From positions 124,001 to 188,000 of the forward strand of contig NZ_JWHL01000001.1 of assembly GCF_018132105.1 (NCBI RefSeq): 64,000 nt of DNA, written 5' to 3'. This DNA comes from Methanocalculus chunghsingensis (GTDB lineage Archaea; Halobacteriota; Methanomicrobia; Methanomicrobiales; Methanocorpusculaceae). Positions within the stretch are counted from its first letter, which is position 1. Every line of letters starts with the position of its first letter. The notes under the pieces were generated by a model. That model saw only the letters and a program-made list of their open reading frames with translations. It had not been told where the DNA came from and made no database searches. The translations under genes and the position numbers were made by a program. Positions 1-18,111 of the stretch are shown piece by piece.

Positions 1-1
1 C

Positions 2-1647: not shown

Positions 1648-1656
1648 TCTACAGGT

Positions 1657-2187
1657 ATGGGGATCCTGATCTATTGGGATTATCGGTCACCGGATGGTAT
1701 CCAGACTCCGGTGCACCGAATAATCTCAGGCCTGATCGGCTGTCCTGTTGACCTTATTCCTGGAGATCTCTTTCCTCTTGATGGGTATCATCGGATTCGG
1801 CGGCAATATGATGCCGGTCGGGTTCTCAACAGGATTGGTCTCTTCAAACGTATGCATACAATTGACAATCCGTTTCTTCTGGTGATACCTGATGATCTCT
1901 ACAGCGAATCTTCAGATTTTGTCTTCGGCCTTGCACGCGCATCAATAGGCGCTGCTGTTGTATCGACAGCACGACTTGAGAATGAATATTACGGTCTTGA
2001 TGATAATACAGGCCTCACCATCGATAGGATCGCAAAAGAGGGTTCGCATGAGATCGGCCATCTCCTCGGCCTGGGGCATTGTACAATCCCTGAATGCATC
2101 ATGTTCCAGCCTGGTACCAGGGATGAGCTGGATCGCAAGCAGAAATGGTTTTGTCCGACATGCCGGTCTCAGCTTCCAGGCATCTGA
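1657..2187 (+). CDS. amzA: Archaemetzincin-type zinc metalloprotease
   Basis: Predicted zinc-dependent peptidase of the archaemetzincin (AMZ) family. It shows the extended metzincin zinc motif HEIGHLLGLGHC, with three zinc-binding His and the catalytic Glu. This is followed by a Cys and the Met-turn (ECIM) and by the CPTC pair, the HExxHxxGxxHC...C.M...CxxC pattern that defines this family. The length of 176 residues is normal. I choose the ATG at 1657 (MGILIYW) because it follows an AGGT and matches the family N-terminus; the open frame begins upstream at 1615. The physiological substrate is unknown. Divergent from the UPF0146 gene. Confidence 0.88.
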   Translation: MGILIYWDYRSPDGIQTPVHRIISGLIGCPVDLIPGDLFPLDGYHRIRRQYDAGRVLNRIGLFKRMHTIDNPFLLVIPDDLYSESSDFVFGLARASIGAAVVSTARLENEYYGLDDNTGLTIDRIAKEGSHEIGHLLGLGHCTIPECIMFQPGTRDELDRKQKWFCPTCRSQLPGI

Positions 2188-2264
2188 TCGTCTGATCTCT
2201 GAATACTTTTCCAAAGGTTAATCTCCAGAACACAGTATATATACAGTAATTCTGTTATTGAGGG

Positions 2265-3206
2265 TTGATTTTGGGTCAGAAGAAAGTTCCATGGCATGCT
2301 ATCTGGGGGTATGGTGCGCACATCAAGTCAACCCCCGGGCTGTTATATGTTCAGAAACGTTCGATACAGTCGAGCTATCCTCTGCAGGATATTAAGCATC
2401 TCCTGCTTGTCGGAGGGCATACTATTCAGACCGCAACAATCAATCGTCTCCTTGAAATAGGTTCATGGATATCGTTTTTTGATGCACACGGAACCCCTCT
2501 TGGAACGCTGAAGCCATTTGGCGGGGCAGGGAACGAGGAGGTATCCTGCCTTCAGGCGTCTATACCGTCGCACCGGTATGTGGTTGAGTTTGCAGCATCC
2601 TCAATGCGCTCACGGCTTTTATGGTTAGAAGAGCTGGATGCCAGACACCCCTCTGGTCTCTTCTACCGTGGAGAGCAGGATGTACTCCATCAGGCATTAC
2701 ATGAGATAGAATTCCTCGTCAGAATTGAAGAAATTCGTAGAATTCATGCATTATCGACGACCATGTACTATGAAATCCTCTCACGGATCGTTCCGGGGGA
2801 GTTAGAGTTCCGAAGAAGGACACACCGTCCTCATTTTGATCCGATTAATGCCATGCTTTCATTTGGATATGCCCTTCTCTTTGGAAACGCCTGTGTTGCT
2901 ATCATTGGGGCACATCTCGATCCCGATCATGGTCTTCTTCATCAGGGAGGGGGTGGCTTTGTCTATGATATTATCGATCCATTGAAGAGATCGATGGTAG
3001 ACTCTGTTGTTTTTGATATAGCACAAAACTCGGAGGTATCAGGAAAATACGAATTAAGCCAGACAAGATGTGTTCTTGGTGACGATCTCATCTCTCTGCT
3101 TCTCGAAAGGCTCTATACAACAATCAATCAGAAGGTGATCGATGAGAATGTCTATACATACCTCCAGTCTCTTAATGGAGGTAATTTTACTGTCTCCTAC
3201 CCGTAA
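2265..3206 (+). CDS. cas1: Solitary Cas1 homologue with altered active site
   Basis: Cas1-family protein of 313 residues. The C-terminal half carries the family signature: RPHFDPINAMLSFGYALL (187-204), then GLLHQ (His226) and YDIIDPLKRS (Asp235, Asp238). The conserved catalytic Glu at the start of this domain (normally within a GIEGxAAxxYF-like segment) aligns with His161 in RRIHALSTTMYY, so metal binding may be impaired. No cas2, no other cas gene and no CRISPR repeat is present in the window, and it lacks the family-B polymerase neighbour of a casposon. The start is TTG at 2265; a TTG at 2271 sits better behind the TGAGGG at 2259-2264. Related stand-alone Cas1 proteins are known in Methanomicrobiales; their function is unknown. 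Confidence 0.88.
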   Translation: MILGQKKVPWHAIWGYGAHIKSTPGLLYVQKRSIQSSYPLQDIKHLLLVGGHTIQTATINRLLEIGSWISFFDAHGTPLGTLKPFGGAGNEEVSCLQASIPSHRYVVEFAASSMRSRLLWLEELDARHPSGLFYRGEQDVLHQALHEIEFLVRIEEIRRIHALSTTMYYEILSRIVPGELEFRRRTHRPHFDPINAMLSFGYALLFGNACVAIIGAHLDPDHGLLHQGGGGFVYDIIDPLKRSMVDSVVFDIAQNSEVSGKYELSQTRCVLGDDLISLLLERLYTTINQKVIDENVYTYLQSLNGGNFTVSYP

Positions 3207-3475
3207 GTAGCTCTTTTAATGGAAAAGTCAGGGAAAATAGTGTCAATGTATTGATGTACTTCAATATCCCTGATTATTGCACGTGGGCATCCATAGAGCA
3301 TTGATACAAACTTTTCAAGAATCACATCATCCCCTGTTGCAAGAATACGGACTTTTCCGTCGGTGAGGTTTTCGACCTCCCCGGTCACACCCAGATTTGT
3401 TGCGATATGTCTGGCACAGGCACGAAACCCGACTCTCTGCACTTTTCCTGAAATAATGAGTTCAATCGTCTTCAT
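3197..3475 (-). CDS. acyP: Acylphosphatase
   Basis: Small 92-residue acylphosphatase, which hydrolyses acyl phosphates such as carbamoyl phosphate and 1,3-bisphosphoglycerate. The N-terminal motif GKVQRVGFR supplies the phosphate-binding loop and catalytic Arg, and VENLTDGKV supplies the catalytic Asn, both in the usual positions. It converges on cas1 with a 10-bp overlap at the 3' ends. A second, much longer acylphosphatase-domain protein lies at 45.6-46.2 kb in this window. Confidence 0.93.
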   Translation of the reverse strand: MKTIELIISGKVQRVGFRACARHIATNLGVTGEVENLTDGKVRILATGDDVILEKFVSMLYGCPRAIIRDIEVHQYIDTIFPDFSIKRATYG

Positions 3476-3534
3476 GGATATACCACAGGATGTATGGTAG
3501 CACCATCCTGGTTTATCTCTGCTTTGACATAGTG

Positions 3535-6500
3535 TTATTCTATTTTATATCCGGGGTTTGAAATTCCTTCATCATCCATCTCCTGGATCAGCTGCATCGC
3601 AACGTACAACTCACTGATCACCTCATCACGAACTTCCGGGGTGATAATATTGGTTGCGGTTGCCATTGCCATATCGAAGAGAGTGCCTCCGTGTTCATAC
3701 TCCCCGTTTACAAATGAGACGAGAGCGAGATCACAGAGGATATATGCGCGTCGGGGAAGGGGACGAATGATACTTGCTTCACGTATGGCCTGTTGTATAA
3801 GCCGTTCTACCCTTCTGCTCTGTGACCGCCGACGGATAAGCATAGCTATTCCGAGATAATATTGTGCACGAACACCCCTGTCATGAATTTTTTGAATTTT
3901 TCGTTCAATGAGGGCGTTATCTGCTACACGCCCTCCTTCATTCAGATGCTGTTCAAGGAGTATCCTGGGTATATCGGTCTGGAGATCTGTCGAGCCGAGC
4001 ATTACCATCAGACCGAGGTCTTCTGCGATACTGATTCTGACAGTTTCCTCAGAAATGCTCTCCAGTAACTCGATGATCAATTCACCAATGTGGTTCTCCT
4101 GGCTTGAACTATATTCATTGACAAGATGTGTGATAATCCGTTTTTTTATCGTTGCTATGATGAAAGGAACTTTGATGCTCTCACTTGCCTGAATGGCTGA
4201 GCGGATACATGCTTCTTTATCCTCCCAAGGCATCTGAATCTCAGAAGAGAAGGCAAAATCAATAAGCAACGTTGCCCGATCATAATGGATGGGAATGGCA
4301 TGCATCTTTTCATATGCTTGTTTAATTAGCCCTCTCTTCTTTGAAGCATCAGAGGTTATTTTGAGCACAGGAATTGTTGCATAGACATACTCAATCGGAT
4401 CTGTTATATCATGGAGCAGTTTTTCGGGATCCGGAAGATCACTTGCCTCACCGAACATCTCTGTATATGCAACGATGGCTGTTGCGAGTTGTCGTCGTGC
4501 ATGGTCTTTTGTTTCCGGTGAAACCTTTTGTATGCGGTGTAATGCTTCGACGATACACTCTCTGGAGGAGAGAGATTTCATCTCAGTCAGGAGGACCGCA
4601 CTCCTCGTCAGAATCTCATGTGCCTCTTCTGGATCAAGTTCATCGATGCCATATCGAATCTGAAGGAGGATTTCCCCTGCAGTAGTGAGTTCTCCTATTT
4701 CGAGGTGGGCCTGTGCGCTATCGCAGAGTCTGATGTTTCGAGCGAATGGATCTTCAATGGCTGATACTATCTGCCTGATAAGTCCAAGAGCTGTTCTTGA
4801 TTGTGATGTTATTGGGAATGATTGTATGATGCTGGCAATCGTTTCATAGGGATTGCTCATATTCATATCAATCTGGTGGGAAAGTGGACGAAGCCTGGTT
4901 GAACACCTTAGAATAATCGTCCGTCGATTGATGGGATCATCCACCTCAAGAATTAACATTGATATAGGGATGATGTATGGACCTGGATCTGTCTTCTGAC
5001 TGTAGTCAAGAATAATATCCGTGCCGATGGTGATACTCCGTGCCTGATCCTGTGGTGCAATTTCATCTCGAAGAATTGATAGTGCTGTCGAGAAGGGCTC
5101 CAATGCCCATTCAAGTGACTCGACAGATGTGAGAATTACCGGTTGTTCGAGGCGCTTACATCCGATGGTGATATATGTGCTGATACACGACTCCAGATGG
5201 TCTCTTCTTTTTTTGGTGTCATGTACCGTTTTAATCATCTCATGTGCGTTTATCAGCGCTTCAGTTGATGACATCTCTCTGGCGAACTGTATCATCCCTT
5301 CGATGATCGTATCAACAGCAATTGCTTGAAACTCTCCAGTAAGGAGATCTTTCCACCATGTATTTACGCGAACCAGAAGGTTGAGGTCTCCCTGAACAAT
5401 GGCAAGTGAGGCTATTTCATAAATAATATGGACAATTGCATCTGATCGGGTCTTTTCATCGTTTATCATACACCCGATGGCTACTGCATGCTGGATAATG
5501 TCCCGGTTTGCCTCATTGACCCCTTCCCGTGCGATTTCGATAATTATCTGAGCGATAGACTGGTCCTGCTTCATTGGATCTGTTATATGTTGTACCAGAT
5601 CAAGGAGCGAGGCAGTATGCTGGTGAATAAGAATCTCAGTATCTATAAGTGAAGTGAGAATGTTGATAACAGCGTCATCAGGGGAGGAGTGAAAGGAAGA
5701 TAGGTGAAGGAGTGTCTTCTTCTTATCTTTAAATGCATATATTCCATCGTTGCTGAGATATGCTTCCTGAGATGTGACAATCAGATAATTGAGTAATTCC
5801 TGCTGGCCGGAAAAGAGTGGAAACAGGAGTTCTTCTGCATATGTAAGATCGCCATCCTGGATAGATTGTTTGAGAAGAATTGTTGCTGTTTGCATCCCCT
5901 TCCCTGTCAATATCTCTCCTCCATTAATGATTCGTGCAAAGAGGAGGTATGCCTCTTTCATATATCCGGCAGCACTTACCTTTTCGATGAAGTGAAAGAT
6001 TGAACGTGTTGTTGAATCGATGAAGGGTTTATCAGCAATAATCTGGTAGATCTCGAATAATTGTTCATTACGGGGGGGGTACGTCTCCTCTGCGACAGCA
6101 ATCTGGATAAGCCTTCTCAGCTGCCCGTCTCCATACGGGGTCATATCTGTTTTCATCTCAGAAAGGAGTGCATCAAGGATATAGCCAGCCGGGTCATCTC
6201 CAATTTCCTTGAGCATGACTGCTACTATCTCCTCATGGTACTCATGGGCCATATCAAATAGTGTCTTCAGATCGGTTTTCAGACTTTCATTTTTCCGCTT
6301 TTTTGCTATCAGAACTGTTGTAAAAGCTGAAATATATTCACTTCTGCTATCCGGCTTTATCTCTTCAAAATAGTTACGGATGAAGCCGTTGATATCAACG
6401 AGGTGTTCAGCCCCTTCCCATGTGGCGATACGTTTGAAAATTGTTTTAAAGGCTTCTTCTCCAAGACCTTTCTGCGGTATTTCTGTCGCCCGATGAAAAG

Positions 6501-7161
6501 CTTCATCAAGGATTTTTTCATCGCCGTTTGAAATACCGATTGTTGCGAATGCATCAATAATCTGAAGATTCAGGGACGATTGTGTACTCATCTCACGAAT
6601 CTCTTGGATCATTTCTGAACAGAGAATCAGGAGATCGCGATCCTGTATGGATGCTGCATACTGGGTGAGACCCGGTATTATCTTTTTTATGGCCTCAGAA
6701 CGGTTTTTCTTGAAATCGATAGCACGAATGTATCTAACACCCTTCGTAATAAGGGTTAAATCGCCTCGATCCTTTCCCACATCAATAAATCGTTCCCCGA
6801 TGGAAGCGACATAATTCGATCTCTGACTTTTTCGTTCGATGAGGTCAAGAAGTCGATCCGAACGCTCAAGCCACCGATTATCATATGAGCTGAGATATTC
6901 TTCTACACAATGGAGCGCTATGTCCCCTGGATTTTTAATTTTTCCTTCTATTCCAAAATCTAAAAATTCCGGCTTCTTTCTTTCAAAAGCAGCTTTGAGG
7001 AGGATATCAATATATTTTTCGAAATATTCGCTGCGCTCACGTTTTACTGGTAATGTCTCTATTTCCTGTAGAAAAACTGAGATCCCGTCAATATCTTCGT
7101 TCTCTATTAAGGAATAAATGGCGTCCGAAGAATTATCCGGGTTATCTTCATTGGTAAACAT
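3535..7161 (-). CDS. Giant helical-repeat protein of unknown function
   Basis: A 1,208-residue protein I cannot assign to a named family. It has no signal peptide or membrane segment and is rich in Ile, Glu, Arg and Ala. It consists of many repeated helix pairs: segments such as RSDAIVHIIYEIASLAIVQ, RSEAIKKIIPGLTQ and SSLNLQIIDAFATIGI are each followed by GD or RD plus LL and a further helix, at spacings of about 30-40 residues. This suggests a TPR-like solenoid used as a protein-binding scaffold (inference). Upstream, 7190-7215 is AT-rich with a TATA-like stretch read towards the gene. It appears to be a single-gene transcription unit between acyP and glmM. Confidence 0.75.
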   Translation of the reverse strand: MFTNEDNPDNSSDAIYSLIENEDIDGISVFLQEIETLPVKRERSEYFEKYIDILLKAAFERKKPEFLDFGIEGKIKNPGDIALHCVEEYLSSYDNRWLERSDRLLDLIERKSQRSNYVASIGERFIDVGKDRGDLTLITKGVRYIRAIDFKKNRSEAIKKIIPGLTQYAASIQDRDLLILCSEMIQEIREMSTQSSLNLQIIDAFATIGISNGDEKILDEAFHRATEIPQKGLGEEAFKTIFKRIATWEGAEHLVDINGFIRNYFEEIKPDSRSEYISAFTTVLIAKKRKNESLKTDLKTLFDMAHEYHEEIVAVMLKEIGDDPAGYILDALLSEMKTDMTPYGDGQLRRLIQIAVAEETYPPRNEQLFEIYQIIADKPFIDSTTRSIFHFIEKVSAAGYMKEAYLLFARIINGGEILTGKGMQTATILLKQSIQDGDLTYAEELLFPLFSGQQELLNYLIVTSQEAYLSNDGIYAFKDKKKTLLHLSSFHSSPDDAVINILTSLIDTEILIHQHTASLLDLVQHITDPMKQDQSIAQIIIEIAREGVNEANRDIIQHAVAIGCMINDEKTRSDAIVHIIYEIASLAIVQGDLNLLVRVNTWWKDLLTGEFQAIAVDTIIEGMIQFAREMSSTEALINAHEMIKTVHDTKKRRDHLESCISTYITIGCKRLEQPVILTSVESLEWALEPFSTALSILRDEIAPQDQARSITIGTDIILDYSQKTDPGPYIIPISMLILEVDDPINRRTIILRCSTRLRPLSHQIDMNMSNPYETIASIIQSFPITSQSRTALGLIRQIVSAIEDPFARNIRLCDSAQAHLEIGELTTAGEILLQIRYGIDELDPEEAHEILTRSAVLLTEMKSLSSRECIVEALHRIQKVSPETKDHARRQLATAIVAYTEMFGEASDLPDPEKLLHDITDPIEYVYATIPVLKITSDASKKRGLIKQAYEKMHAIPIHYDRATLLIDFAFSSEIQMPWEDKEACIRSAIQASESIKVPFIIATIKKRIITHLVNEYSSSQENHIGELIIELLESISEETVRISIAEDLGLMVMLGSTDLQTDIPRILLEQHLNEGGRVADNALIERKIQKIHDRGVRAQYYLGIAMLIRRRSQSRRVERLIQQAIREASIIRPLPRRAYILCDLALVSFVNGEYEHGGTLFDMAMATATNIITPEVRDEVISELYVAMQLIQEMDDEGISNPGYKIE

Positions 7162-7272
7162 TTAACTAACGAGTAATTATGTAAATGTCATCATTCTTAA
7201 AGATATTTATTTAGTTCTTTAAGGGTATATTAGTTCAAATGATTTCTTTTGAATTTTACCATGAGGTATGTA

Positions 7273-8631
7273 TTAATTATTCAGTATCTCAAGGATTATT
7301 TTCTTCATATCTTCAGCTGTTATCGGATTTTTGGATTCCACATAAAGTCTTACAAATGGTTCGGTTCCCGATGGCCGGAGGAGTGCCCATGCGTCTTTCC
7401 ACCGTATATGGATGCCATCCGTTTCATCAAAAACCGGGCTATCGGGTGCATGCTGCTGTACTTTCTTTATGAGTGCATCCGGATCATCTGTATATATCTT
7501 CTCCTTGAGCATGGTGTACGATGGAAGCTTTTCTGTAAGCCTGGAGATGGGTACGGCAGATTCTGCGATAAGGGCAGCCATCGCGGCGGCTGTCATCCCC
7601 CCGTCACGACAGAACTGGTGATCCGGGAAGATGAGTCCTCCATTTCCTTCTCCTCCAAAAGCAACTGGTTGCCCTTCTGCGATATATCTCCGCATCGTTC
7701 GGGCGACATAGATACTGCCGACCGGTGTTGCGATGGTTGTGCATCCATATGTGGAGGTGACATCAGCGATCAGATCTGATGTGCTGACGGGGGTGATGAT
7801 CAGGCCGGGCCGTTTTTTACAGGCTGCTCCGGCAAGCATCGCAAATGTTACGTTTTCATCAATAAAAATCCCCTTTTCATCGACAAAGACTGCCCGGTCG
7901 GCATCACCATCATGGGCTACACCGAAGGCTGCACCTGTTGCACGCACCATCTCAGAGAGTGGAGCCAGTCCCTCAGGTGTGGGTTCAGGGAGGCGTCCCG
8001 GGAATGTGCCATCGAACCTGGCGTTGATGGTATGGATGGTTGCCCCCATTCTTCTCAATATTTCTGGTGTTGTGGCGGCTGCGGGCCCTGAACCCGGATC
8101 AACAACAATGGTCATCCCTTTGCAGATCCTCTCCGGGAATTGTGTAACGATTGAGGTGATGTACTCCTCTACTCTCTGGCGCTCATCGGTCAATCTCCCG
8201 ATGTTTCTCCAGTCTGCGATGGTTGCCTCCCGGGATTTGATAAGCGCCTCAAGCTGGATGGTCCGTTCATCACCCATCTCCGTCCCATCTCCTTCGATCA
8301 CTTTTACACCATTATATTCAGGGGGATTGTGCGACGCGGTGATCATTGCCCCTCCGTCATAATGCTCTCTGACAAGATACTGGAGTGCGGGTGTGGGGAG
8401 TATACCAACATCGACTACATCACATCCGGTAGACAACAGGCCGGCCCTCATCGCTGCAGCAAGTGCCTCTCCGGAGGTTCTGGTATCGCGTCCAACAGCG
8501 ATTGTCCCCCGAACCATTGTGCCGAGGGCTGATCCGATTCTCATGACGAGTTCGGGATTCATTTCTGTTCCAATAACGCCCCGGACACCATTGGTTCCGA
8601 AGAGCTCTTTTAATTTTTTTTCATTCTCCAT
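7273..8631 (-). CDS. glmM: Phosphoglucosamine mutase (or phosphomannomutase)
   Basis: Phosphohexomutase of the alpha-D-phosphohexomutase superfamily, about 452 residues, interconverting 6-phospho and 1-phospho sugars for nucleotide-sugar synthesis. All four active-site loops are visible: the phosphoserine loop TASHNPP, the metal loop DGDADR, the sugar-specificity loop GGEGNGG and the phosphate loop RPSGTEP. The start LKELFGTNGVRG is typical of GlmM-type enzymes, but archaeal paralogues may use mannose, so specificity is uncertain. I choose the ATG at 8631 (MENEKKLKELF), which overlaps the upstream gene by 11 bp and is probably translationally coupled to it. The product would feed the glycan genes at 50-64 kb. 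Confidence 0.88.
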   Translation of the reverse strand: MENEKKLKELFGTNGVRGVIGTEMNPELVMRIGSALGTMVRGTIAVGRDTRTSGEALAAAMRAGLLSTGCDVVDVGILPTPALQYLVREHYDGGAMITASHNPPEYNGVKVIEGDGTEMGDERTIQLEALIKSREATIADWRNIGRLTDERQRVEEYITSIVTQFPERICKGMTIVVDPGSGPAAATTPEILRRMGATIHTINARFDGTFPGRLPEPTPEGLAPLSEMVRATGAAFGVAHDGDADRAVFVDEKGIFIDENVTFAMLAGAACKKRPGLIITPVSTSDLIADVTSTYGCTTIATPVGSIYVARTMRRYIAEGQPVAFGGEGNGGLIFPDHQFCRDGGMTAAAMAALIAESAVPISRLTEKLPSYTMLKEKIYTDDPDALIKKVQQHAPDSPVFDETDGIHIRWKDAWALLRPSGTEPFVRLYVESKNPITAEDMKKIILEILNN

Positions 8632-9211
8632 CTTCTGGCTCCATTGTATTTTTTGCTGCCTGACTGTCTGGTGTCGGACGCTCAGCACGCTCCTTTAAGA
8701 GGACATTTGCTGAGTCCCCAAGTCGCCGCATTATTTCTGTGATCCGATCCTCAATCTCGATCTCGTCGTCAATCTCTATCGAGGTTCCTTCAACCTCAAG
8801 GAGGAAACGGGCGATCTCACTTGATTCAAAGAGGATATCATCAAGTTCGTCGAGGGTGAAGAAGCCGCACATTGCTCCATAAAAGAAGGTTGCTCCGGAT
8901 TTTCGTACTTTTCGTTTGAAGGCTGTGCGTGCCTGATTTACCGCCTGTGGCGAATAGGGCTCCTCCATGAACGGAACGAGCTTTGGGAGGTTTTCACCGA
9001 TGAAGGTCATCTCTGCACCTGCTGTGGTTTTAAAGTCCGAGCAGAGGCGTGCGATAGCCCATTCACGTGCGGTGATATAGGTGTGTTTCCTTAGAAACTG
9101 GTTGACTTTCCGGTATGTTGCACCATCGACTTTGCGGAACTTCCTGTATTTCGAGATCTCCTCGCTCCGATCATCGCCGCCAGGATCGCTTCCTCCCTCT
9201 GAATAGCTCAT
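8621..9211 (-). CDS. DUF5806-like conserved euryarchaeal protein
   Basis: A 196-residue protein conserved among methanogens and haloarchaea; I recognise the core (YRKFRKVDGATYRKVNQFL, TYITAREWAIARLCSDF, IGENLPKLVPFM, GATFFYGAMCGFF) as what is probably catalogued as DUF5806. No catalytic motif is evident. The first ~25 residues are acidic and low in complexity. The ATG at 9211 is preferred because a GAGGT lies about 8 bp upstream; the frame is open from 9241. It is first in a probable two-gene unit with glmM. The 22-bp repeat at 9334-9355 lies about 120 bp upstream and contains a TATA-like TATAAACC reading towards this gene. Confidence 0.6.
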   Translation of the reverse strand: MSYSEGGSDPGGDDRSEEISKYRKFRKVDGATYRKVNQFLRKHTYITAREWAIARLCSDFKTTAGAEMTFIGENLPKLVPFMEEPYSPQAVNQARTAFKRKVRKSGATFFYGAMCGFFTLDELDDILFESSEIARFLLEVEGTSIEIDDEIEIEDRITEIMRRLGDSANVLLKERAERPTPDSQAAKNTMEPEDGE

Positions 9212-9333
9212 TTCGTTACCTCGTTTGTCTTCTTCCCGCATGAAGGTTATCTGTTTGTACCTGCCCGGTTTTCTCTCCGTTCCTCATCCTGTATTATTCA
9301 TATGCCAGGCCCCTCATTTGTTCCATTGTAACG

Positions 9334-9355
9334 TATAGCATCATATGGTTTATAG
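9334..9355 (-). repeat. 22-bp inverted repeat, left copy
   Basis: Read on the minus strand this begins CTATAAACC and ends GATGCTATA. It is identical over 22 bp to 11763-11784 on the plus strand, so the two copies point outward from the gene-free region. No target-site duplication is visible outside the copies. It may be a promoter/operator, a polar replication-arrest site, or the terminal repeat of a decayed element. Confidence 0.85.
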
Positions 9356-10625
9356 ATGGTGGTTTGTCTCTCTTTTTTGATCTCCCTCTATCAAAGAAAG
9401 GTCCGATCTCATGATCCGGATCGACGGTGGTGCTGATCTATGGGGGTATTAGGGGCTTTGGTCTGGCCGGAATCTGGTGAAGGATCGGTATCTCGATATT
9501 AGTCTTTTCTTGCGGGATTGGATTGTGTCGTCAATGTTCTCAGAGATCAGACCCCCATCGACTCAAAGAAGACGCTATTGACAGGTATCGTTCACCGCAC
9601 TCCGATCATGACGAAATATGGGGGGAATCAGGCCGGAAAGCAACCCGTAGTCCGATCTTCTGCTCAATCAACAGATTCGAGGAGGTGGTTATCTGATTCG
9701 ATTCGATTATGGTGGGGGGAGTTTCTATTCCTGAAACATCCAGGTACTTCCATGGGACGTCTGGATACGGTTGCCCTGCCCATCATCAGAAAAGAATCCT
9801 CTGAAATGGTGGATTTCCGGAAGATGTCATCATCAGGCGGGAACAGGGTTGTTAAATTCACACATCAGATGGTCTCTTCTGAATGTGAATAGCGATTATG
9901 ATCGGGTTTTCATAGGGTCTTTGAAGAGTGGTGGACGAACCACCCTCCTGTTCCCCTCGGTTGTATCTGATGCACTGCCATCATTCTCGCAGCAAGGCAT
10001 CTTTTCCTAGAAGGGAAATAAAAAAATGAGGGCTCAAGGCCAGAAGGCTCTATCCTGCTGTTCACTGTGGGGAGTGTTCATGATCGGGGGGTTTCTACCC
10101 CGATGGCGTCCCTTCTTTTTGCCCGTCTCATCCTACATTGCATGGGATGATACGTTCATCGGAATTTGTATGCTGTCTGGTGGCTCTCATGGATAATATC
10201 CAGAAATAAGTGGGGGCGTATACCGCCGTCCGGGCTCCTGCTGTCCCGTGTGATTATCGTACACATCTCTTCTGGCCCCCAGGTGGGCGTATAAATGCGG
10301 TAGTGAGGGTTAGGGCCCTGGTGGTGGGCGTCAGCCCTTCAGGGGTGTCTGTTCATCAGAATAAAAATCTCTTAGATGATCGCACTCTCTGTACGTCTGG
10401 TCCGGCCGGATTGGGGGCTTCGGTCGTATCTGTTCTGAAATGGAACGGGCTACTTTGTTATGGTGGAATAATGGTGGGGAAACGCTTCAGGTGACTGATG
10501 GATTATTCCGATCTCAGTTCGATACCGACTGCGTGATCGTGATCAGGTTTTCTGTGTGGAGGATGTCGTTATTCCGGGGGATCTATGTGGCTGGTCTGGG
10601 TTTCTCAGGCCTGATCTGATCTCAC

Positions 10626-10653
10626 ATTGCGCAGAATTGCTATTCTGCGCAAA
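10626..10653. other. dif: Candidate dif site (XerA target)
   Basis: A 28-bp dyad in the exact architecture of Xer recombination sites: left arm ATTGCGCAGAA, 6-bp spacer TTGCTA, right arm TTCTGCGCAAA. The arms are reverse complements at 10 of 11 positions; seen as a simple palindrome, 10627-10652 is a perfect 11-bp dyad with a 4-bp centre. Published archaeal dif sites also begin ATT, end AAA and use 11-6-11 spacing. It lies 1.26 kb upstream of the xerA gene, in otherwise gene-free DNA, next to an AT-rich tract. It is not followed by a T-run on either strand, which argues against a terminator. Confidence 0.7.
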
Positions 10654-10740
10654 AATAACAACAAATTTCTACTGAAAAATTAAGCTTATATTAGGTTTAA
10701 TTTCCCAAAATATCTCTAACTTATGGTTTTTTAAGTTCAT
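10652..10740. other. AT-rich tract beside the dif-like site
   Basis: About 90 bp of markedly AT-rich sequence with several A- and T-runs directly follows the right dif arm, in a region that is otherwise moderate in GC. Such tracts often mark DNA-unwinding or accessory protein-binding sites; here the role is inferred from position only. No orc1/cdc6 gene or origin-recognition repeat is visible nearby. Confidence 0.5.
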
Positions 10741-11762
10741 GTCTGTCTCTTCGTATCTTCGACAGATTCTGTCTGTTGATCTCTCTGTACCATGGTTGTC
10801 CTTGCTGGCTATCGGTCATTCCTGTGGAATCAGATCAGCTGACGGGTATATAAAGGATCGCTATATTGTCGATATAATCGATCATTGGGTGCAAAAGGTA
10901 TCATCATAGGGCCCTTCCTGAGATCATTGCTATATGGGGTGATATGAGGGTGATCTTTTTGGATCCGCGGGGTGGGCTGGTATGGTTCTCTCCTCAGATC
11001 CTGTGTTCGGTTCAGTGCGATCTTCGGGGTCGGTCTTCACCTGGGGGTATCATTCCGATCGTTCTGCCGTAGTGAAGGTGAGATCATGGTGCAGTGATAG
11101 CTATGCCTCTCTATTATTCCCGGCTGCGATGATGGATATTATTGGTACCTGTTATTGGGTGGTTGTTTGGCATTCTGGGCAACTTTCGGTCTGATACTAT
11201 AGATGCGAGATGAGGCGGGTGTTGATCGTTGAAAACATGATCCATTGATCTGGGCGTGTGGAGAAATGATGTGGATGAGATGGTGTGTGATATGTTTACC
11301 TGATGGGTGCAAATGGGGGTGTCGCTATCAGCGGGTGTCAGATCTCCTTAACGATTCTCCCTGGACTTGGATTGACGATTTTTTTATTGGCAGGGGCTGT
11401 TGTCGGGAATGGTTGCCTGACTTCATATCTGCTCTTCGGGTCGGGGTGAGTTATCTGGTTGGAGTTGTGTCTTTTGTGATGTCTCACGCGGCATCTCCGT
11501 CCTGAGCCCGGCTGTCTTTGATTATAAGGGGTCCGATGATCTCCAATTGTAATCGTAAGCCGCTGGATTTCGCAAACATACGTGTTGGGATTGCAGAATC
11601 GTGGTCTTTGTATTCTGATGGTTTCAGGGCGGTGTTCCCGGTTTGTTCATATCGTTGTTCCTTCTCTGCTCTTCGGATCCTCTCCTGTTAATGATCTGAA
11701 AATTGCCTTGTTTTGTGCATTATTGGTGGGATGAATGTTCGTGCATCTACGAAATATATTAC

Positions 11763-11784
11763 CTATAAACCATATGATGCTATA
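11763..11784 (+). repeat. 22-bp inverted repeat, right copy
   Basis: Starts CTATAAACC and ends GATGCTATA; identical to the minus-strand sequence at 9334-9355. The copy lies 127 bp before the xerA start codon. The centre of the two repeats (about 10559) nearly coincides with the dif-like site (centre about 10640). Confidence 0.85.
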
Positions 11785-11868
11785 TCTATGAAAATGCACT
11801 TTATCATCATTTCTCGGATCTTCTGGCCCTGATTCGGCACTGTGGATGAACCTGTACATTCTCGGGAA

Positions 11869-11890
11869 ATTCTGCGCAATATTTTAATCT
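11869..11890 (+). promoter_or_regulatory. xerA promoter with dif half-site
   Basis: Positions 11869-11880 read ATTCTGCGCAAT, matching the right arm and mirror of the left arm of the dif-like site 1.2 kb upstream. This half-site abuts the AT-rich ATATTTTAATC at 11879-11889, which is well placed as a TATA element about 25-30 bp before the ATG at 11911, implying a nearly leaderless mRNA. XerA binding here could repress its own gene (inference). Confidence 0.55.
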
Positions 11891-11910
11891 ACGAAGAACC
11901 TACTCTTTGT

Positions 11911-12789
11911 ATGGCCCCCCGCCAGCGCACGCTCTCTCTCTGGATTCAACGGTATATCAATCACCTGACGATGCGAAACTACTCAGAAAAGACGCTGGAT
12001 ACTTATCGGAGGGTGCTTCAGGACTTTTGTGCGTATCGCAGCGGTGCTGTGGGAGACGAGGATCCCTCTATTGAAACGGATGGGTATGAAATAACTGACT
12101 TTCTGGCACAGGCCTCTGCGATGCGTACACTGTCCGCAACGACGATGAACCGCTACCTCTCTACCCTGAGTTCATTCTTCACGTTCCTTGTCGGGCAGAA
12201 TATGCTCGAGAGCAACCCGGTTCTCGGAGTGGATCGTCCGAAGATCAAGGATAGGGAACTGCTCTATCTGAAACATAATGATGTCGTCGGTCTCTTACAC
12301 CGGATCGAAGATGCGCGAGATCGCCTTCTTATCAGGACGATCTATTCGACAGGTGTCAGGGTCTCTGAACTCTGCGGGATTACTATCGAGCATATCGACT
12401 TCACTGAAGAGACAATTCGGATCCGGGGGAAGGGAGGAAAGATCAGGACAGTCTTCATCGATCCGGAGACTCTCAATGCCATCAGATCCTTTATTGCAGG
12501 CAGGGAAGATGGCCCTCTCTTTGTTGGGCAGAAGGGTGCTCCTCTCTCCCCACGAACGGTCCAGCACATCTTCCGGAAGTACGCCCCTTCCGGCATTACC
12601 CCACACAAGATCCGGCATAGCTATGCCAGTGAGCTCTACCGGCGATCAAAGAACCTCAGGGTCGTCCAGGAGAACCTCGGTCATTCCTCTATTAAGACGA
12701 CAGAGGTCTACCTGCATACTGATCTTGAGGAGCGTCGCCGGGTCTATCAGGAGCACTTTCCGTTATCTGAGTCGACCACCTTGGACTGA
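11911..12789 (+). CDS. xerA: XerA tyrosine recombinase
   Basis: Tyrosine site-specific recombinase of 292 residues, the archaeal counterpart of XerC/XerD, which resolves chromosome dimers at dif. The N-terminal core-binding domain (about 8-105) contains the SEKTLDTYRRVL helix. The catalytic domain has Arg150 (STGVRVSEL), the beta-hairpin lysine (GKGGKIRT), His232 and Arg235 (PHKIRHS), His258 (LGHSS) and the nucleophile Tyr267 (TEVYLH), so it looks fully active. The ATG at 11911 fits family length and the promoter; a GTG at 11842 is in frame but would translate through the half-site. No phage or plasmid genes adjoin it, supporting a housekeeping role. Confidence 0.93.
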   Translation: MAPRQRTLSLWIQRYINHLTMRNYSEKTLDTYRRVLQDFCAYRSGAVGDEDPSIETDGYEITDFLAQASAMRTLSATTMNRYLSTLSSFFTFLVGQNMLESNPVLGVDRPKIKDRELLYLKHNDVVGLLHRIEDARDRLLIRTIYSTGVRVSELCGITIEHIDFTEETIRIRGKGGKIRTVFIDPETLNAIRSFIAGREDGPLFVGQKGAPLSPRTVQHIFRKYAPSGITPHKIRHSYASELYRRSKNLRVVQENLGHSSIKTTEVYLHTDLEERRRVYQEHFPLSESTTLD

Positions 12790-12849
12790 CGTCGCCGGCC
12801 TCCCGACTCTGATCGTAAAAAAATCTATTCTCTTTAAAAATGGTTTTAT

Positions 12850-13035
12850 TTATCCATCAGAGAGGAGCACACCGCCTTTTGCGATACTATCGCGGGGGAG
12901 CTCTTCAAAGAGAATAATGATCGCAGATGCATCAATCCCGAATGTCTCAGCAACCGTCTCTGCAATCTTTGAGGCAACAACACGTTTCTGTTCAGTTGAG
13001 CGCCCTTCGGCCATCTGTATGGTTATTACAGGCAT
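12850..13035 (-). CDS. 4-oxalocrotonate tautomerase family protein
   Basis: A 61-residue tautomerase-superfamily protein. After Met removal Pro1 of PVITIQMAEGR becomes the catalytic base, followed by the usual RSTEQKRVVASKIAETVAE helix. Such small proteins assemble as hexamers. The physiological substrate in methanogens is not known. It converges on xerA, with a 60-bp gap holding A/T runs that may serve both transcripts as terminators. Confidence 0.85.
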   Translation of the reverse strand: MPVITIQMAEGRSTEQKRVVASKIAETVAETFGIDASAIIILFEELPRDSIAKGGVLLSDG

Positions 13036-13110
13036 ATGTATACAGATGAGGAGTACCGATAAAGGTATTTTTATTTGATATGGGTCAGTCTATCTCTATT
13101 CTCTGTTTCC

Positions 13111-14235
13111 TCACCACTTTCTGCTCCGCCTCCCGTCTTTGACCCACCTGATCGTTGCAGACTGGATATAGAGGCCAAGGAGTGCACAGATGAGCCCTAT
13201 CACTGTGAATGCGATGATGGAGCGGACACCTGCATCTGCGGCAATCGGGAAGTCGGGAACATTGCTGATAGAGAGGAGATAACTGCTTGCCCCATAAATG
13301 ATCGTCCCGATTGCACCGATGAAGAAGGGGAGGATAACAACTCTGCCGAGGTTCTCACGGTCATTTAAGATACAGTCGATGATCTTTCCACCCATCGCAA
13401 CAAGCCCTGCCCCGACAAACCACCATACTGATCCAAATATGAAAGCAGCGATAAAGAGGAGTAATCCTGCTTCTTCTGAGAGTGGATAATAGACGAGGAG
13501 GCTTGTGAGGCCCATGATAATACCAACAATGGAGATGAGCGCTGCTGAAATATAGGCCACAAAGCTGAAACTTCCCTTCTGAAATGATTGCTGCAGACTT
13601 GAAATGAGGTACCCAAAGAACTCATCGATTCCAAAACCCTTGAAGAGGAGATAGGTTCCAACAGCTCCAACAACGATGAAGGTGGCCATATCGGGTCGTC
13701 CAACCAGGTATGCAGCAGAGTAGAGCAGCATCGCAAGGCCGATTGGAACCAGGACGACCCGGGAGATCTTCGGATCATCAAGGAATTTCTTCAGGATGTA
13801 ATATGTCCCCTCAAGGTTGGGCATCTGCGTGACGATCACACGCCGTACACTCTCTACAGGAATTCGTGACTGGATGATCGGGAGGACATAGTCATCCTCT
13901 GCGCCATCTGAGACGAGGATACAGGCATTAACACCTGTCTGTCTGACGATCTGGGTGATGGCATCGCCTATCCGCCGATCCCCCTCCAGCATATTCATAT
14001 GGTCTCCTCCGATAATGGCGATGACGACATCTTCTCCTCTTTCCAGGAGGTCATCATAGGTCTTCACTGCGGAGAAGATTGCATTTACATCGGAGTCTTC
14101 AGGATCGACGAGTCCCAGTCTCGTTGCTGCCTGCAATGCCGCCTCTCTTCCGACTATCGGGCTTGCTATCTGAGCTTTATACCCGATGTCATCGTCGCGG
14201 TCTATGGCAAGAACAAGTGTCTTTCTCGTCTCCAT
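13111..14235 (-). CDS. DUF373 family membrane protein
   Basis: A 374-residue archaeal protein of the DUF373 family. The N-terminal cytosolic domain (1-155) starts TLVLAIDRDDDIG and contains AIIGGDHMN and acidic stretches that suggest metal or nucleotide binding. From about residue 158 there are some seven hydrophobic segments (for example VVLVPIGLAMLLYSAAYLV), then a basic C-terminal tail (RRSRKW). Function is unknown. Its neighbours are a tautomerase and a coiled-coil protein, with no clear operon link. Confidence 0.85.
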   Translation of the reverse strand: METRKTLVLAIDRDDDIGYKAQIASPIVGREAALQAATRLGLVDPEDSDVNAIFSAVKTYDDLLERGEDVVIAIIGGDHMNMLEGDRRIGDAITQIVRQTGVNACILVSDGAEDDYVLPIIQSRIPVESVRRVIVTQMPNLEGTYYILKKFLDDPKISRVVLVPIGLAMLLYSAAYLVGRPDMATFIVVGAVGTYLLFKGFGIDEFFGYLISSLQQSFQKGSFSFVAYISAALISIVGIIMGLTSLLVYYPLSEEAGLLLFIAAFIFGSVWWFVGAGLVAMGGKIIDCILNDRENLGRVVILPFFIGAIGTIIYGASSYLLSISNVPDFPIAADAGVRSIIAFTVIGLICALLGLYIQSATIRWVKDGRRSRKW

Positions 14236-14352
14236 TACAGATTAGATCAACCTATAAGGATAATAAGGTTATTTTTGCAGAATTTTTGAAAATCCTCTGA
14301 CACAACCTGGTGATCCGGGGGTGCCCAACCGGATTCCCTGAAACAAAAAAAA

Positions 14353-15213
14353 TTAGATGAGTTTTGATCTCTGAAGGAGGAGGAGGTCGTCAGTTGTGAG
14401 CTTTTCACCACTCTTGAAAGAGTTGAATATCTTCTCTGCTTCCATCCTGACGGACTTATTCTCTTTCACGGTTTTTACCTTCTTGGTCTTCGTCCGGACG
14501 CCGCTGATGACCTTATCATAATCGCGGAGTTCCTTCTGACACTCGATGAAGGATTTATGTTCTGCATCAGCAGATTCCTGTGCTTCAACAAATGCGCGGT
14601 GTCGGGCATCAGCCTCTTCACGTGACTTATCGGCCTTACGATAGCATTCTACCATCAGATCATGGTGCTGCTGTGCGAGATCGGCACTCTCCGTCACCTT
14701 GATATGGAGGTCTGAAGCGGCTTTTCTGAGATCCCTGGCGTCCTGCAGTTTTCCACGGATTTCTTTGTTCTGCTCAAGTTCGGCTTCCTGTTCCCGAACC
14801 TGCTGTTTCATCTGCTTAATCTTCTCAACGAGATCGCGCTCTTTGTCGGCACTCATCGCCTCGGTCTGCTGTTTGAATTCCAGAAACTCTATCTGCCGCT
14901 GGATATCCTTGACCTGGCCTTTCTTGATGTTGCCATGCTCTTTTTTGTACTCTTCAAGTTCTTCGAAGAGCACATTGGCCTTCTCGTTGAGTTCGTTCCG
15001 CTGGTCCTTCAGGGTAGAGACATCCTTGTTGCTCTTATCCCGAAGTTCTTTATGCTGCTGAGCCTCCTCAACAAACTGGCGCGTCTGGTTGTTCAGCTCA
15101 TTCCGCTCGCGGGCATACTGGCTCGCGAGAGCATTGAGTTCATTCCTTCGCTCCTTATGCTGTTCAGATTCAGCGAGAATAGTCTTCCTCTTGTCTATGA
15201 GATCATTCAACAT
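14353..15213 (-). CDS. Archaeal coiled-coil protein (COG1340 type)
   Basis: About 286 residues that are almost entirely heptad-patterned, very rich in Glu, Lys, Gln, Arg and Asn (for example KERRNELNALASQYARER). It ends in a short non-coiled domain containing VRMEAEKIFNSFKSGEKLT and LLLLQRSKLI. This matches the widespread archaeal family COG1340, often mis-named phosphoserine phosphatase. Function is unknown; the basic C-terminal module may bind RNA or a ribosome (inference). I choose the ATG at 15213 with GAGG upstream; the open frame begins with a TTG at 15222. Confidence 0.75.
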   Translation of the reverse strand: MLNDLIDKRKTILAESEQHKERRNELNALASQYARERNELNNQTRQFVEEAQQHKELRDKSNKDVSTLKDQRNELNEKANVLFEELEEYKKEHGNIKKGQVKDIQRQIEFLEFKQQTEAMSADKERDLVEKIKQMKQQVREQEAELEQNKEIRGKLQDARDLRKAASDLHIKVTESADLAQQHHDLMVECYRKADKSREEADARHRAFVEAQESADAEHKSFIECQKELRDYDKVISGVRTKTKKVKTVKENKSVRMEAEKIFNSFKSGEKLTTDDLLLLQRSKLI

Positions 15214-15522
15214 GCTCAACAATCCTCAAATGTCGATACAATTGCTTCTGGTGGCGATGTTCAGAGAACCATAATGAAGATCGAACTTTGGTATGGGTTT
15301 AATGAGAGAAAAAACAGATAAGAACGCGCCTACGTGATGCTGCAGGTGGATCATCATATTCAACCTCCGATACCAAAGTCATGTCTCTTCTCTTAGGTGC
15401 GAACACTCGCCTCTGCCAGAAGTATTGATACGACTTTCTATAAGAAATGGCTTAGAGTGGTATTAAAGATTTCGTAAAAGCCGGGTTGACGGTGGTCTTC
15501 CCGAAAAAAGTGAAGGTTTTGG
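15214..15522. other. Intergenic gap between ftsZ2 and the coiled-coil gene
   Basis: About 300 bp without a gene. It should hold the promoter of the coiled-coil gene and the 3' end of the ftsZ2 transcript. I see no repeat or RNA gene here. Confidence 0.6.
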
Positions 15523-16662
15523 TTACATTACCCAGTCTACAAGGCTTCCTGATCGATCGTCAGGACGCCTTCCTGCTGTCCGAAGCGGCATCTCCATCTT
15601 TCTATTGCCGGTTGATTGGGCTGAGAGGAATGGTCTGCCTCCGAGAATCTGTGGGCTCTGCACACCGGTCATGATAGCCATGACACGAATCTTTCCTTCA
15701 TAGTCGTTCCTGACGCGGGCGCCCCAGATGACATCGGCATGTGGATCAAGCTCATACGTCAACTGGCTGGCAATCTCCTCTGCATCATGGAGAGTGAGGT
15801 CATTTCCCCCCGTGATATGGATGAGACATCCGGTTGCCCCACGGTAGTCGATATCGAGGAGCGGGTGGTCAAGGCATTCGCGGACGACACTTTCTGCTTT
15901 ATTCTGCTGTTTCGTCTCTCCAACGAGCATCACTGCGAGGCCACCCTTGCTCATGGTTGCCCGCACGTCGGCATAGTCAATATTGATGAGTGATGGCTCG
16001 GTAATCGTCTCGCTGATCCCCTTTACCGTTTCTGAGATGAGCTGATCCATTACAGAGAATGCCTGGCCGAGCGGAAGGTTTGGAACAAAATTCTTCAGTC
16101 TGTTGTTATCAAGGACGATAACAGAGTCCGCGGCATTCCGGATGGCTTCAAGCCCCTCCTCGGCTTTGAGCATGCGCGCCTTTTCGACCTGGAATGGATA
16201 GCTGACCATCGCAACGACGATCGCACCCTGTTCCTTTGCAATCTGAGCGACCACTGGTGCAGATCCGGTACCTGTTCCTCCTCCCATACCTGCAGTGACA
16301 AAGACGAGATCTGCCGATTCGAGGAGCCCCTCAAGTGTGGGGCGGGCCATCTCTGCTGCGCGTTTCCCCACGTCAGGGAATCCTCCAGCTCCCAGACCTT
16401 TTGTAAGTGATTTGCCGATCAGAACGCGTTTATCCGCCTGAATCATGTCGAGGTGCTGTTTGTCGGTATTAATAGCGATCGTCTCAGCGCCTGCCACCTG
16501 CATATGGTGAAGCCTGTTGACGGTATTATTACCGGCGCCACCGCAGCCGATGATAACAATCCGCGGGTTGCCAAGCATCTCATCATCATCAATAATTGAT
16601 GATTTTACACGGTCTTTTTCAATTTCTGCATTTTTAAGAGCTTCATTAATTATCGTCTGCAT
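15523..16662 (-). CDS. ftsZ2: Cell division GTPase FtsZ2
   Basis: Tubulin-family GTPase of 379 residues that polymerises at the division site. GCGGAGNN (39-46) and the signature GGGTGTG (127-133) bind nucleotide. The wording [27 protein letters not shown] and LSEITI-type T7-loop region ([22 protein letters not shown]) is closer to the archaeal FtsZ2 than the FtsZ1 branch. The ATG at 16662 begins one base after the stop codon of the ribbon-helix-helix gene, so the two are co-transcribed. The tail after 330 is variable and ends LVDWVM, a possible partner-binding peptide. Confidence 0.92.
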
Positions 16663-16663
16663 C

Positions 16664-16858
16664 TTATAACCCCTCTCTCTCAATATTAAACGATGTGACC
16701 TGATCGCTCTCCCGCATTACCCGATCTCCATGTCTTGATAAGAGCTCCCGCACTGCATATCGTACCGCTTCTGATACTGTTGGGAATTCGCCTGCTGAAA
16801 CAAGTTTTTCCAGCATTTCGACCTGTTGCCTGGGTAATCGAATGGTGATCCTGTCCAT
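16664..16858 (-). CDS. cdrS: CdrS-like ribbon-helix-helix regulator
   Basis: A 64-residue ribbon-helix-helix DNA-binding protein. [20 protein letters not shown] is the beta strand and first helix, and [18 protein letters not shown] is the second helix. It lies directly upstream of ftsZ2 with a one-base gap, the arrangement known for the haloarchaeal cell-division regulator CdrS, which controls ftsZ2. A GAGGTG ribosome-binding site lies 5 bp before the ATG. The palindromes at 16874-16927 make autoregulation likely. Confidence 0.85.
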
Positions 16859-16873
16859 CTTTCACCTCTGTCA

Positions 16874-16927
16874 GACATATGTCATATATTGCTATGACAT
16901 ATGTCCGACATTTAGTGTACATTTGTC
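16874..16927 (-). promoter_or_regulatory. Triple palindromic operator upstream of cdrS-ftsZ2
   Basis: Two perfect 10-bp palindromes GACATATGTC lie at 16874-16883 and 16896-16905 and a degenerate one, TACATTTGTC, at 16918-16927. Their centres are exactly 22 bp apart, two helical turns, so all face the same side of the DNA. The first two are the ends of a 32-bp perfect dyad (13-bp arms, 6-bp centre). They begin 16 bp before the cdrS start and cover the TATA-like AATATATG, as expected for cooperative binding of a ribbon-helix-helix protein. Confidence 0.75.
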
Positions 16928-17106
16928 TGATGAAGGAATCAGATGGTTTTAGATATATCGCAACTGCATATATAGTTTATGAATTTGATCTGAGCGAGGA
17001 ATTACGTGGCTTTTCAGAACTGTTTTATTAGAATCCATACCAACAATCTTACGTATTATCCAGTGACTTTCTCTTTAATTTTTTATATTAACGGGTGATT
17101 ATTCCG

Positions 17107-18111
17107 ATGAAACCACAGAGGCTACCACTGAAACAGAGGCATGGAGGGGTTATCCGACGACTTCGTGCAGATGGAGCGGGAGAGGATCTCATCGACTTCA
17201 GTGCCAGCATGAACCCATATCCCCCCTCTATAGACTGGAAGCCTGAGTTATGTGATATTCTGGATTATCCTGATGATACCTACATTGAACTGAAAGAAGC
17301 GATCGGATCTGCCTTCTCGCGTGATCCCTCAGAGATAGCGGTGGGTAATGGATCAATTGAACTGATCAGGATCTATGCCCAGGTTTTTCTTTCACCCGGA
17401 TCTGGAGCATTGATCGAGTCACCTACCTTTGGGGAGTATGCCCAGTCCGTTCTCCTTGCTGGTGGAAAGCTGGTCAAAGAGCCTGAAGATGCCACAGTTC
17501 GATATCTCTGCAACCCCAATAACCCGACAGGAAAGCTGCTTCAGAGAGAGGATGTTCGAAGTATCCTCCATGACTGTAAAGAGGCTGGCTCACGCCTGTT
17601 TCTTGATGAGGCATTCATCGATCTCGCTGATCCGGATGAGAGTATGTCGGATCATCGTGATTCCGATCTTTTTATCCTCAGATCCCTCACAAAAGCATTC
17701 TCTGTTCCTGGAATCAGATTCGGATTTGGGTTTTCAGATCCTGAAACAATCGAGGCTATCGAGACTGCCCGTCCGCCATGGACGGTTAACCGATATGCGG
17801 AAACATATGCAATTGAAGCCTTGCGCCATCTTCCTGATCTTGAACGTTCACGAAGGCTTATCGCAGAGGAGAGAGCTTTTCTTTCTGGATCGATACGATC
17901 CCTTGGTCTCTTCTGCCACCCGTCCTCGGTGAATTATCTTCTTGTTGATACCGGCAGGGATGCCGGCGAACTTCAGCATGCCCTCCTCAAGGCAGGCGTC
18001 CTTGTTCGGGACTGCACTTCTTTTGGCCTTCCCCAGTCGATCCGGATCGCCGTCCGACGTCATGAAGAGAACACTGTACTTATTGAGGCATTATCTGCAT
18101 GCATGCACTGA
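17107..18111 (+). CDS. cobD: Threonine-phosphate decarboxylase-like aminotransferase
   Basis: PLP-dependent fold-type I enzyme of about 334 residues, between HisC and CobD in sequence. SASMNPYPP near the N-terminus, YLCNPNNPTGKLL, LDEAF and the PLP lysine in RSLTKAFSVPGIRFGF are visible. It overlaps the following cobY gene by 13 bp, which favours CobD: making (R)-1-amino-2-propanol phosphate from L-threonine phosphate for the cobalamin side chain. A histidinol-phosphate aminotransferase role is the alternative. The ATG at 17107 is preferred over the GTG at 17095. Confidence 0.82.
   Translation: MKPQRLPLKQRHGGVIRRLRADGAGEDLIDFSASMNPYPPSIDWKPELCDILDYPDDTYIELKEAIGSAFSRDPSEIAVGNGSIELIRIYAQVFLSPGSGALIESPTFGEYAQSVLLAGGKLVKEPEDATVRYLCNPNNPTGKLLQREDVRSILHDCKEAGSRLFLDEAFIDLADPDESMSDHRDSDLFILRSLTKAFSVPGIRFGFGFSDPETIEAIETARPPWTVNRYAETYAIEALRHLPDLERSRRLIAEERAFLSGSIRSLGLFCHPSSVNYLLVDTGRDAGELQHALLKAGVLVRDCTSFGLPQSIRIAVRRHEENTVLIEALSACMH

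Follow-up and report, generated by a model that had tools for sequence, protein, structure and literature searches.

The present locus raises the question of whether a 28-bp palindrome lying upstream of xerA is the chromosomal dif site of Methanocalculus and, if it is, how it came to lie apart from the promoter of the recombinase gene. The window, meaning the whole 64-kb stretch of DNA that was analysed, holds the palindrome, xerA and a number of further elements that bear on both parts of the question.

The palindrome, xerA and their surroundings

The first-pass annotation had proposed a candidate archaeal dif site of 11-6-11 architecture at 10626-10653, in a gene-free stretch 1.26 kb before a complete xerA gene. 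Both the position and the letters of the 28-mer were confirmed, and so was its geometry of two inverted 11-bp arms around a 6-bp spacer, with 10/11 positions complementary. The surroundings also proved to be as described. No supported gene was found between 9242 and 11910 (ORFs of ≤124 aa), xerA begins 1,257 bp after the 28-mer, and a cognate XerA is encoded, with a score above the cut-off of the archaeal family model. Two features had escaped the annotation, namely a perfect 22-bp inverted repeat that brackets the site (9334-9355 and 11763-11784) and, at 11870-11879 in the xerA promoter, the right arm repeated letter for letter (TTCTGCGCAA). The features of the locus are the following:

8621..9241, minus strand: DUF5806 gene (PF19122; Pfam E 5e-70), a conserved neighbour of dif in the order, with ATAAACCATATGATGCTATA 92 bp upstream
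9242..11910, no strand: gene-free dif zone of 2.7 kb, plus strand T- and G-rich (ORF check; no Rfam family matched within 9200-12000)
9334..9353, minus strand: left copy of the polar motif ATAAACCATATGATGCTATA, pointing away from dif (inverted repeat, motif search)
10626..10653, plus strand: very probable dif site, with left arm 10626-10636 ATTGCGCAGAA, spacer 10637-10642 TTGCTA and right arm 10643-10653 TTCTGCGCAAA (sequence, uniqueness, conservation in genus and order, insertion target in relatives)
11765..11784, plus strand: right copy of the polar motif ATAAACCATATGATGCTATA, pointing away from dif, between dif and xerA (inverted repeat, motif search)
11868..11880, plus strand: half-site AATTCTGCGCAAT in the xerA promoter, identical to the dif right arm, with left arm and spacer lost, positioned where other genera have the full site
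11880..11888, plus strand: TATA-like sequence TATTTTAAT, immediately 3' of the half-site; the same abutment of arm and TATA-like box is seen across the order
11911..12789, plus strand: xerA (ATG start; an upstream GTG start at 11842 is possible), tyrosine recombinase (NCBIfam NF040815 recomb_XerA_Arch, 267 bits, cut-off 220; Pfam Phage_integrase)

At ≤3 mismatches the 28-mer has no second match, either in the window (0 expected from shuffles) or in the whole Methanocalculus genome (2.13 Mb in 51 contigs; control 0). Concerning its shape, 11-6-11 palindromes with ≥10/11 positions paired number four in the window against 0.5 expected, so the shape alone is unremarkable and the case for the site rests on conservation and context. 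At the xerA promoter, TATTTTAAT is probably the core promoter. The half-site beside it is invariant among the aligned Methanocalculus species, the row G005x, which came from another stretch, being disregarded, and is present in 7/7 genomes with data, the promoter carrying there the right arm only, TTCTGCGCAAT, just before the start codon. From this conservation it is clear that at least one arm has some role at the xerA promoter too.

Elsewhere in the window, about 5 kb from dif, there is an FtsZ-like gene (15523-16683, minus strand), whose GGGTGTGS signature was read by eye. Between it and a gene at 17095 lies a perfect 11-6-11 palindrome, CATATGTCATA-TATTGC-TATGACATATG (16876-16903), which looks like a repressor operator.

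Conservation of the site and insertions at it

Among the genomes compared here, we take five to be those of M. labreanum, M. marisnigri, M. boonei, M. palustris and M. hungatei. At ≤3 mismatches the 28-mer was recovered from five of the eight Methanocalculus genomes and from one more distant genus, and one further Methanocalculus species matches if the spacer is left free. With such a free spacer, TTGCGCAGAA-N6-TTCTGCGCAA matches 122/232 genomes of the order, mostly in single copy. Comparison of the match places with the xerA coordinates placed the site, outside Methanocalculus, as a rule immediately upstream of xerA. The upstream DNA of about 85 xerA loci was read and gave 46 distinct 28-mers, most of them at one fixed distance from xerA and with the right arm against a TATA-like box. 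The spacer-side arm ends, AA...TT, are conserved in this set, with no conservation of the first base (0.1 bit); the likeness to the published dif that had been seen in a site beginning ATT and ending AAA therefore carries little weight. None of the 46 has a palindromic inner tetranucleotide (about 5% by chance), an asymmetry of the spacer that may hint at recombination.

Specifically, the arms read ATTGCGCATAA/TTATGCGCAAT in Methanocorpusculum, the sister genus of Methanocalculus, ATTGCGGGGAA/TTTACCGCAAT at the same place in the Methanoculleus-like family and CTGTCGCAGAA/TTCTGCGACAA in another family of the order. Two Methanocella-like genomes, of a sister lineage of the order, have ATGTCGCAAAA-TAGGTA-TTTTACGACAT and GTGTCGATAAA-TAGTAA-TTTATCGACAT upstream of xerA. 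The lineage-specific dif that had been proposed thus holds for the arms, which drift by clade, but not for the module, which is order-wide and, in at least two Methanocella-type genomes, has a similar counterpart before xerA. A single copy close to xerA in each genome, kept in relatives, had been named as the pattern to look for, and it was found across the order; second copies occur in a minority of relatives, several of them inside mobile elements.

Apart from its conservation, the site is a target of insertion. Virus-like elements of 8.5-8.8 kb are present at dif beside xerA in three genomes:

L150:5555-13999
L151:about 5524-14200
L166:about 5490-14249

No recombinase or integrase was recognised among the scanned proteins of these elements. 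Two Methanoregula-type genomes, G095 and G117, have two sites each, 8.5 and 8.7 kb apart, with spacers that are identical within a genome and different between the genomes. A single empty site is found in G121, which is about 95% identical to G095 on both flanks, and the alignment of the two breaks exactly at the site (in locus coordinates, 1-5486 of G121 aligns with 51-5554 of G095, and 5466-8732 with 14000-17289). After insertion, the xerA-side site retains the spacer and the right arm, its left arm being foreign (TACCTCAGAA), and the far site is complete. A related element in the third genome, G042, has the spacer TGACTA at both ends and a degenerate far site. Because the elements inserted exactly at the site and a relative with an empty site exists, we conclude that the site recombines in nature; insertion by elements in which no integrase was recognised points indirectly to XerA as the enzyme. 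For the ATPase of the elements, a phage packaging family gave a match and the STIV B204 packaging ATPase a weak one. Relatives of the ATPase occur in only 3/231 genomes of the order, all three upstream of xerA at dif. Viral contigs gave no match to the ATPase or to the site, and neither did a phage collection. In two of the three cases the element carries a copy of the polar 20-mer. These elements are archaeal counterparts of the bacterial IMEX.

The insertions also bear on the displaced site of Methanocalculus. Six genomes of the genus offer enough sequence to place the complete site, which in them is 0.6-1.3 kb upstream of xerA, and Methanosphaerula palustris has the same split, with a full dif away from a promoter half-site. 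The parts are ordered motif (-), full dif, motif (+), half dif and xerA in Methanocalculus, and motif (-), full dif, element motif (+), half dif and xerA in G095 and G117. Since a full dif away from the promoter and a half-site at it is the arrangement made by present-day insertions, we infer that Methanocalculus plausibly carries a decayed insertion at dif. In the simplest history, a virus-like element would once have used XerA to enter the promoter dif; the promoter would have kept one arm, the intact dif would have come to lie at the element's far end, and most of the element would later have been lost. The gene-free zone at 9242-11910 is probably, in part, what remains of the insertion.

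These comparisons make the palindrome at 10626-10653 very probably the chromosomal dif site of Methanocalculus. By analogy with the characterised archaeal XerA, the recombinase would bind both 11-bp arms, pair the two dif copies of a dimeric chromosome and exchange strands where the 6-bp spacer meets the arms, the expected points of cleavage, to give monomers. In most of the order dif is at the same time the upstream part of the xerA promoter, and bound XerA should repress its own gene; in Methanocalculus the dif role and the promoter role are physically separated.

If the palindrome served solely to regulate xerA transcription, as an operator for XerA or a different regulator that is never recombined, its abutting the TATA box of the gene at an almost constant distance in most genera would be accounted for, as would the invariance of the promoter half-site in Methanocalculus. 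The full palindrome is conserved in that genus nonetheless, 0.6-1.3 kb from the promoter, and elements inserted exactly at the palindrome with identical spacers at both ends; we therefore rejected this reading, which we consider very unlikely. Even less credit is due to the view that the palindrome is an attachment site of mobile elements and that the true site of chromosome dimer resolution lies elsewhere: dif-like palindromes are indeed found also inside proviruses and integrative elements, but the site is single-copy order-wide and linked to xerA with or without elements, and no other xerA-linked palindrome is conserved. An attachment site of an integrase unrelated to XerA was rejected as well. 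Finally, a chance palindrome near xerA has a negligible probability, because conservation of sequence and place across the order refutes it, even if such palindromes are not rare in the window.

Further palindromes of this kind were noted. Three of them with shared flanks, on contigs of two genera (L155:6160, L156:783 and L157:2129), sit between genes for the small and large terminase subunits, as named from reading the sequence and not from a search. Two related integrative elements, which from their sequence encode a tyrosine integrase themselves, carry a dif-like site (L153:6190 and L154:5667) that possibly serves multimer resolution. A second conserved family, of TTGCGCAGAATAATAATTCTGCGATA-like palindromes (L172:1944, L173:1999, L174:1959, L159:3296 and L160:2743), lies away from xerA, with a TATA-like box and a short conserved sequence next to it, and is perhaps another promoter bound by XerA. 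In addition, a 3,947-bp contig of the Methanocalculus genome G003 (L158), which may be a plasmid or a virus, carries a dif-like site (position 651) and encodes a small protein resembling a ribbon-helix-helix regulator.

The terminus region, the polar motif and DUF5806

The first-pass annotation had also named a position near the GC-skew switch as a sign in favour of the site. In M. labreanum the GC skew is noise, and a blind change-point scan of strand-biased k-mers was used for that reason. The scan placed breaks at orc1 and within 730-820 kb, a range that includes dif (770 kb), with 0/200 permutations as high; finer sampling gave a broad switch zone at about 780-885 kb, with dif on its near edge. 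No replichore break at dif was found by the k-mer scan in M. marisnigri, M. boonei and another Methanocorpusculum (G010), that is in 3/4 sampled complete genomes, so the sign was seen approximately and in M. labreanum only. The distance from xerA to the best orc1 gene, the likely origin, ranges from 0.12 to 0.47 of the circle, and the dif sites of Thermococcales likewise lie off the antipode, at 122-142 degrees (PMC2958812). In most complete genomes xerA and dif are 25-125 kb from the second orc1/cdc6 paralogue (e.g., 639649 and 736449 in G061).

The 22-bp inverted repeat of the window consists of two copies of a 20-bp motif, ATAAACCATATGATGCTATA, whose profile reaches nearly 2 bits at most positions and has sharp edges. 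At ≤1 mismatch it is present in 75/119 genomes of the order. On contigs near xerA, 90/97 copies point away from the promoter site, and the remaining seven are exactly the Methanocalculus copies adjoining xerA. These are outward relative to the displaced palindrome in the six placeable genomes, the seventh contig ending too early, which indicates that the geometry of the motif follows the displaced palindrome and not the promoter half-site. A census was made of 22 complete or nearly complete genomes (58 Mb, with the 25-kb vicinity of dif representing 1.9% of the DNA). At ≤1 mismatch, 37/38 copies lie ≤25 kb from dif, 37 outward and 0 inward, so that polar sites inverted around dif, as in a fork trap, are present. 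Relaxing the search to ≤3 mismatches gave 55 outward and 6 inward copies within the same distance, against 11 to 9 elsewhere; the six inward copies are weaker, near a primary copy and confined to one family. Outward copies stand on both sides of dif in 21/22 complete genomes, and the spacing of a pair is usually just 2-4 kb. The copies of M. hungatei are all degenerate and more distant. For most copies, an outward-facing gene follows after roughly 20-250 bp. The genes faced vary by clade (GHMP kinase, sugar epimerase, mutS, MerR-like regulator, CLP1, iron ADH and xerA) and two copies face convergent genes, and it follows that the motif goes with dif and not with a particular gene.

Concerning a protein partner, DUF5806 occurs in 71/108 genomes of the phylum and is highly conserved and nearly always single-copy. 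Its gene adjoins dif across the order and is not beside xerA in the Methanocella-like genomes. A sense copy of ATAAACCATATGATGCTATA is found ≤450 bp upstream of 34/40 DUF5806 genes, and because the motif usually lies just upstream of its gene, the protein is the leading candidate for binding it, and probably does bind it. The AlphaFold prediction of DUF5806 from six sequences was of low confidence (pLDDT 55), and no sequence relatives were found in the PDB.

The motif may be a fork barrier, an XerA accessory site or an operator, and the reading that we favour, though weakly, is that the pair would mark a directional boundary around dif and steer fork fusion or XerA synapsis. Tentatively, and a little short of an even chance, we propose that the pair and a DUF5806 binder form an archaeal directional terminus boundary, either a fork trap or an XerA-activating gate, which would do the job of FtsK and Ter/Tus in bacteria; XerA-dependent virus-like elements would then carry the motif and so keep dif working after integration. 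The flanking 20-mers could instead be shared promoters or operators of two outward transcription units beside dif, a small regulon including DUF5806, with no role at dif. Their position shortly upstream of genes, and of most DUF5806 genes in particular, makes a transcriptional role possible, but the genes faced are unrelated between clades and in two cases convergent, near-perfect copies are nearly absent elsewhere in the 58 Mb, and in two present-day insertions the element's own 20-mer keeps the full dif bracketed. We regard this regulon as quite possible, though less likely than not.

Comparison with known systems

The dif site itself is of a known kind; what is new is a dif that lies in the xerA promoter or is split from it, a dif-centred polar motif and a dif that is the target of integrase-less virus-like elements. 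A word search of the open-access literature, which is no proof of novelty, found no description of the Methanomicrobiales dif, of the ATAAACCATATGATGCTATA motif or of XerA-dependent archaeal proviruses. The analysis gives an order-wide dif sequence, natural insertion evidence of recombination and a polar motif centred on dif for which a conserved protein is the candidate partner, and points to XerA-dependent virus-like elements in methanogens. The function of ATAAACCATATGATGCTATA is the most interesting part, and the findings bear on how archaea direct dimer resolution without FtsK. If ATAAACCATATGATGCTATA is a fork barrier or an XerA gate, it would be, as far as we could find, the first sequence-defined terminus organiser in archaea.

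The XerA/dif system of Pyrococcus abyssi and other Thermococcales (Cortez, 2010; PMC2958812) likewise has a 28-bp site of 11-6-11 geometry, with inner AA...TT, one copy per chromosome and XerA as recombinase. Its arms differ from those of Methanocalculus, however, its dif is not beside xerA, and no flanking polar 20-mer is described for it (PMC2958812). A dif adjoining the gene of a single recombinase is known from Sulfolobales, near xerA (PMC2958812), and from the streptococcal difSL-xerS (PMC5357621; PMC2731167), although difSL measures 31 bp and its centre 11 bp. The Methanomicrobiales module differs from the other xer-dif modules in that its right arm stands against the promoter TATA box.

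The Methanoregula-type elements resemble IMEX (PMC5357621), including LME-1 of Legionella (PMC9765430), in having no recognised integrase and a dif mimic with one altered arm. A wild-type and a modified site flank an IMEX after insertion, and the Methanoregula-type elements too have a dif-like site at each end; they differ in their archaeal host, their virus-like genes and, in two of three, their copy of the polar motif. In a similar way, XerA-dependent virus-like elements in methanogens would parallel the bacterial phages that use XerC/D.

Short polar sites inverted around dif are shared by ATAAACCATATGATGCTATA and the Tus-Ter and RTP-Ter fork traps (PMC10331603), and the ter site at the tus promoter (PMC10331603) recalls the position of ATAAACCATATGATGCTATA at the gene of its putative binder, DUF5806. 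In contrast to those systems, the motif and the candidate protein are unrelated to theirs, the pair is usually 2-4 kb apart, and an archaeal fork trap is hypothetical.
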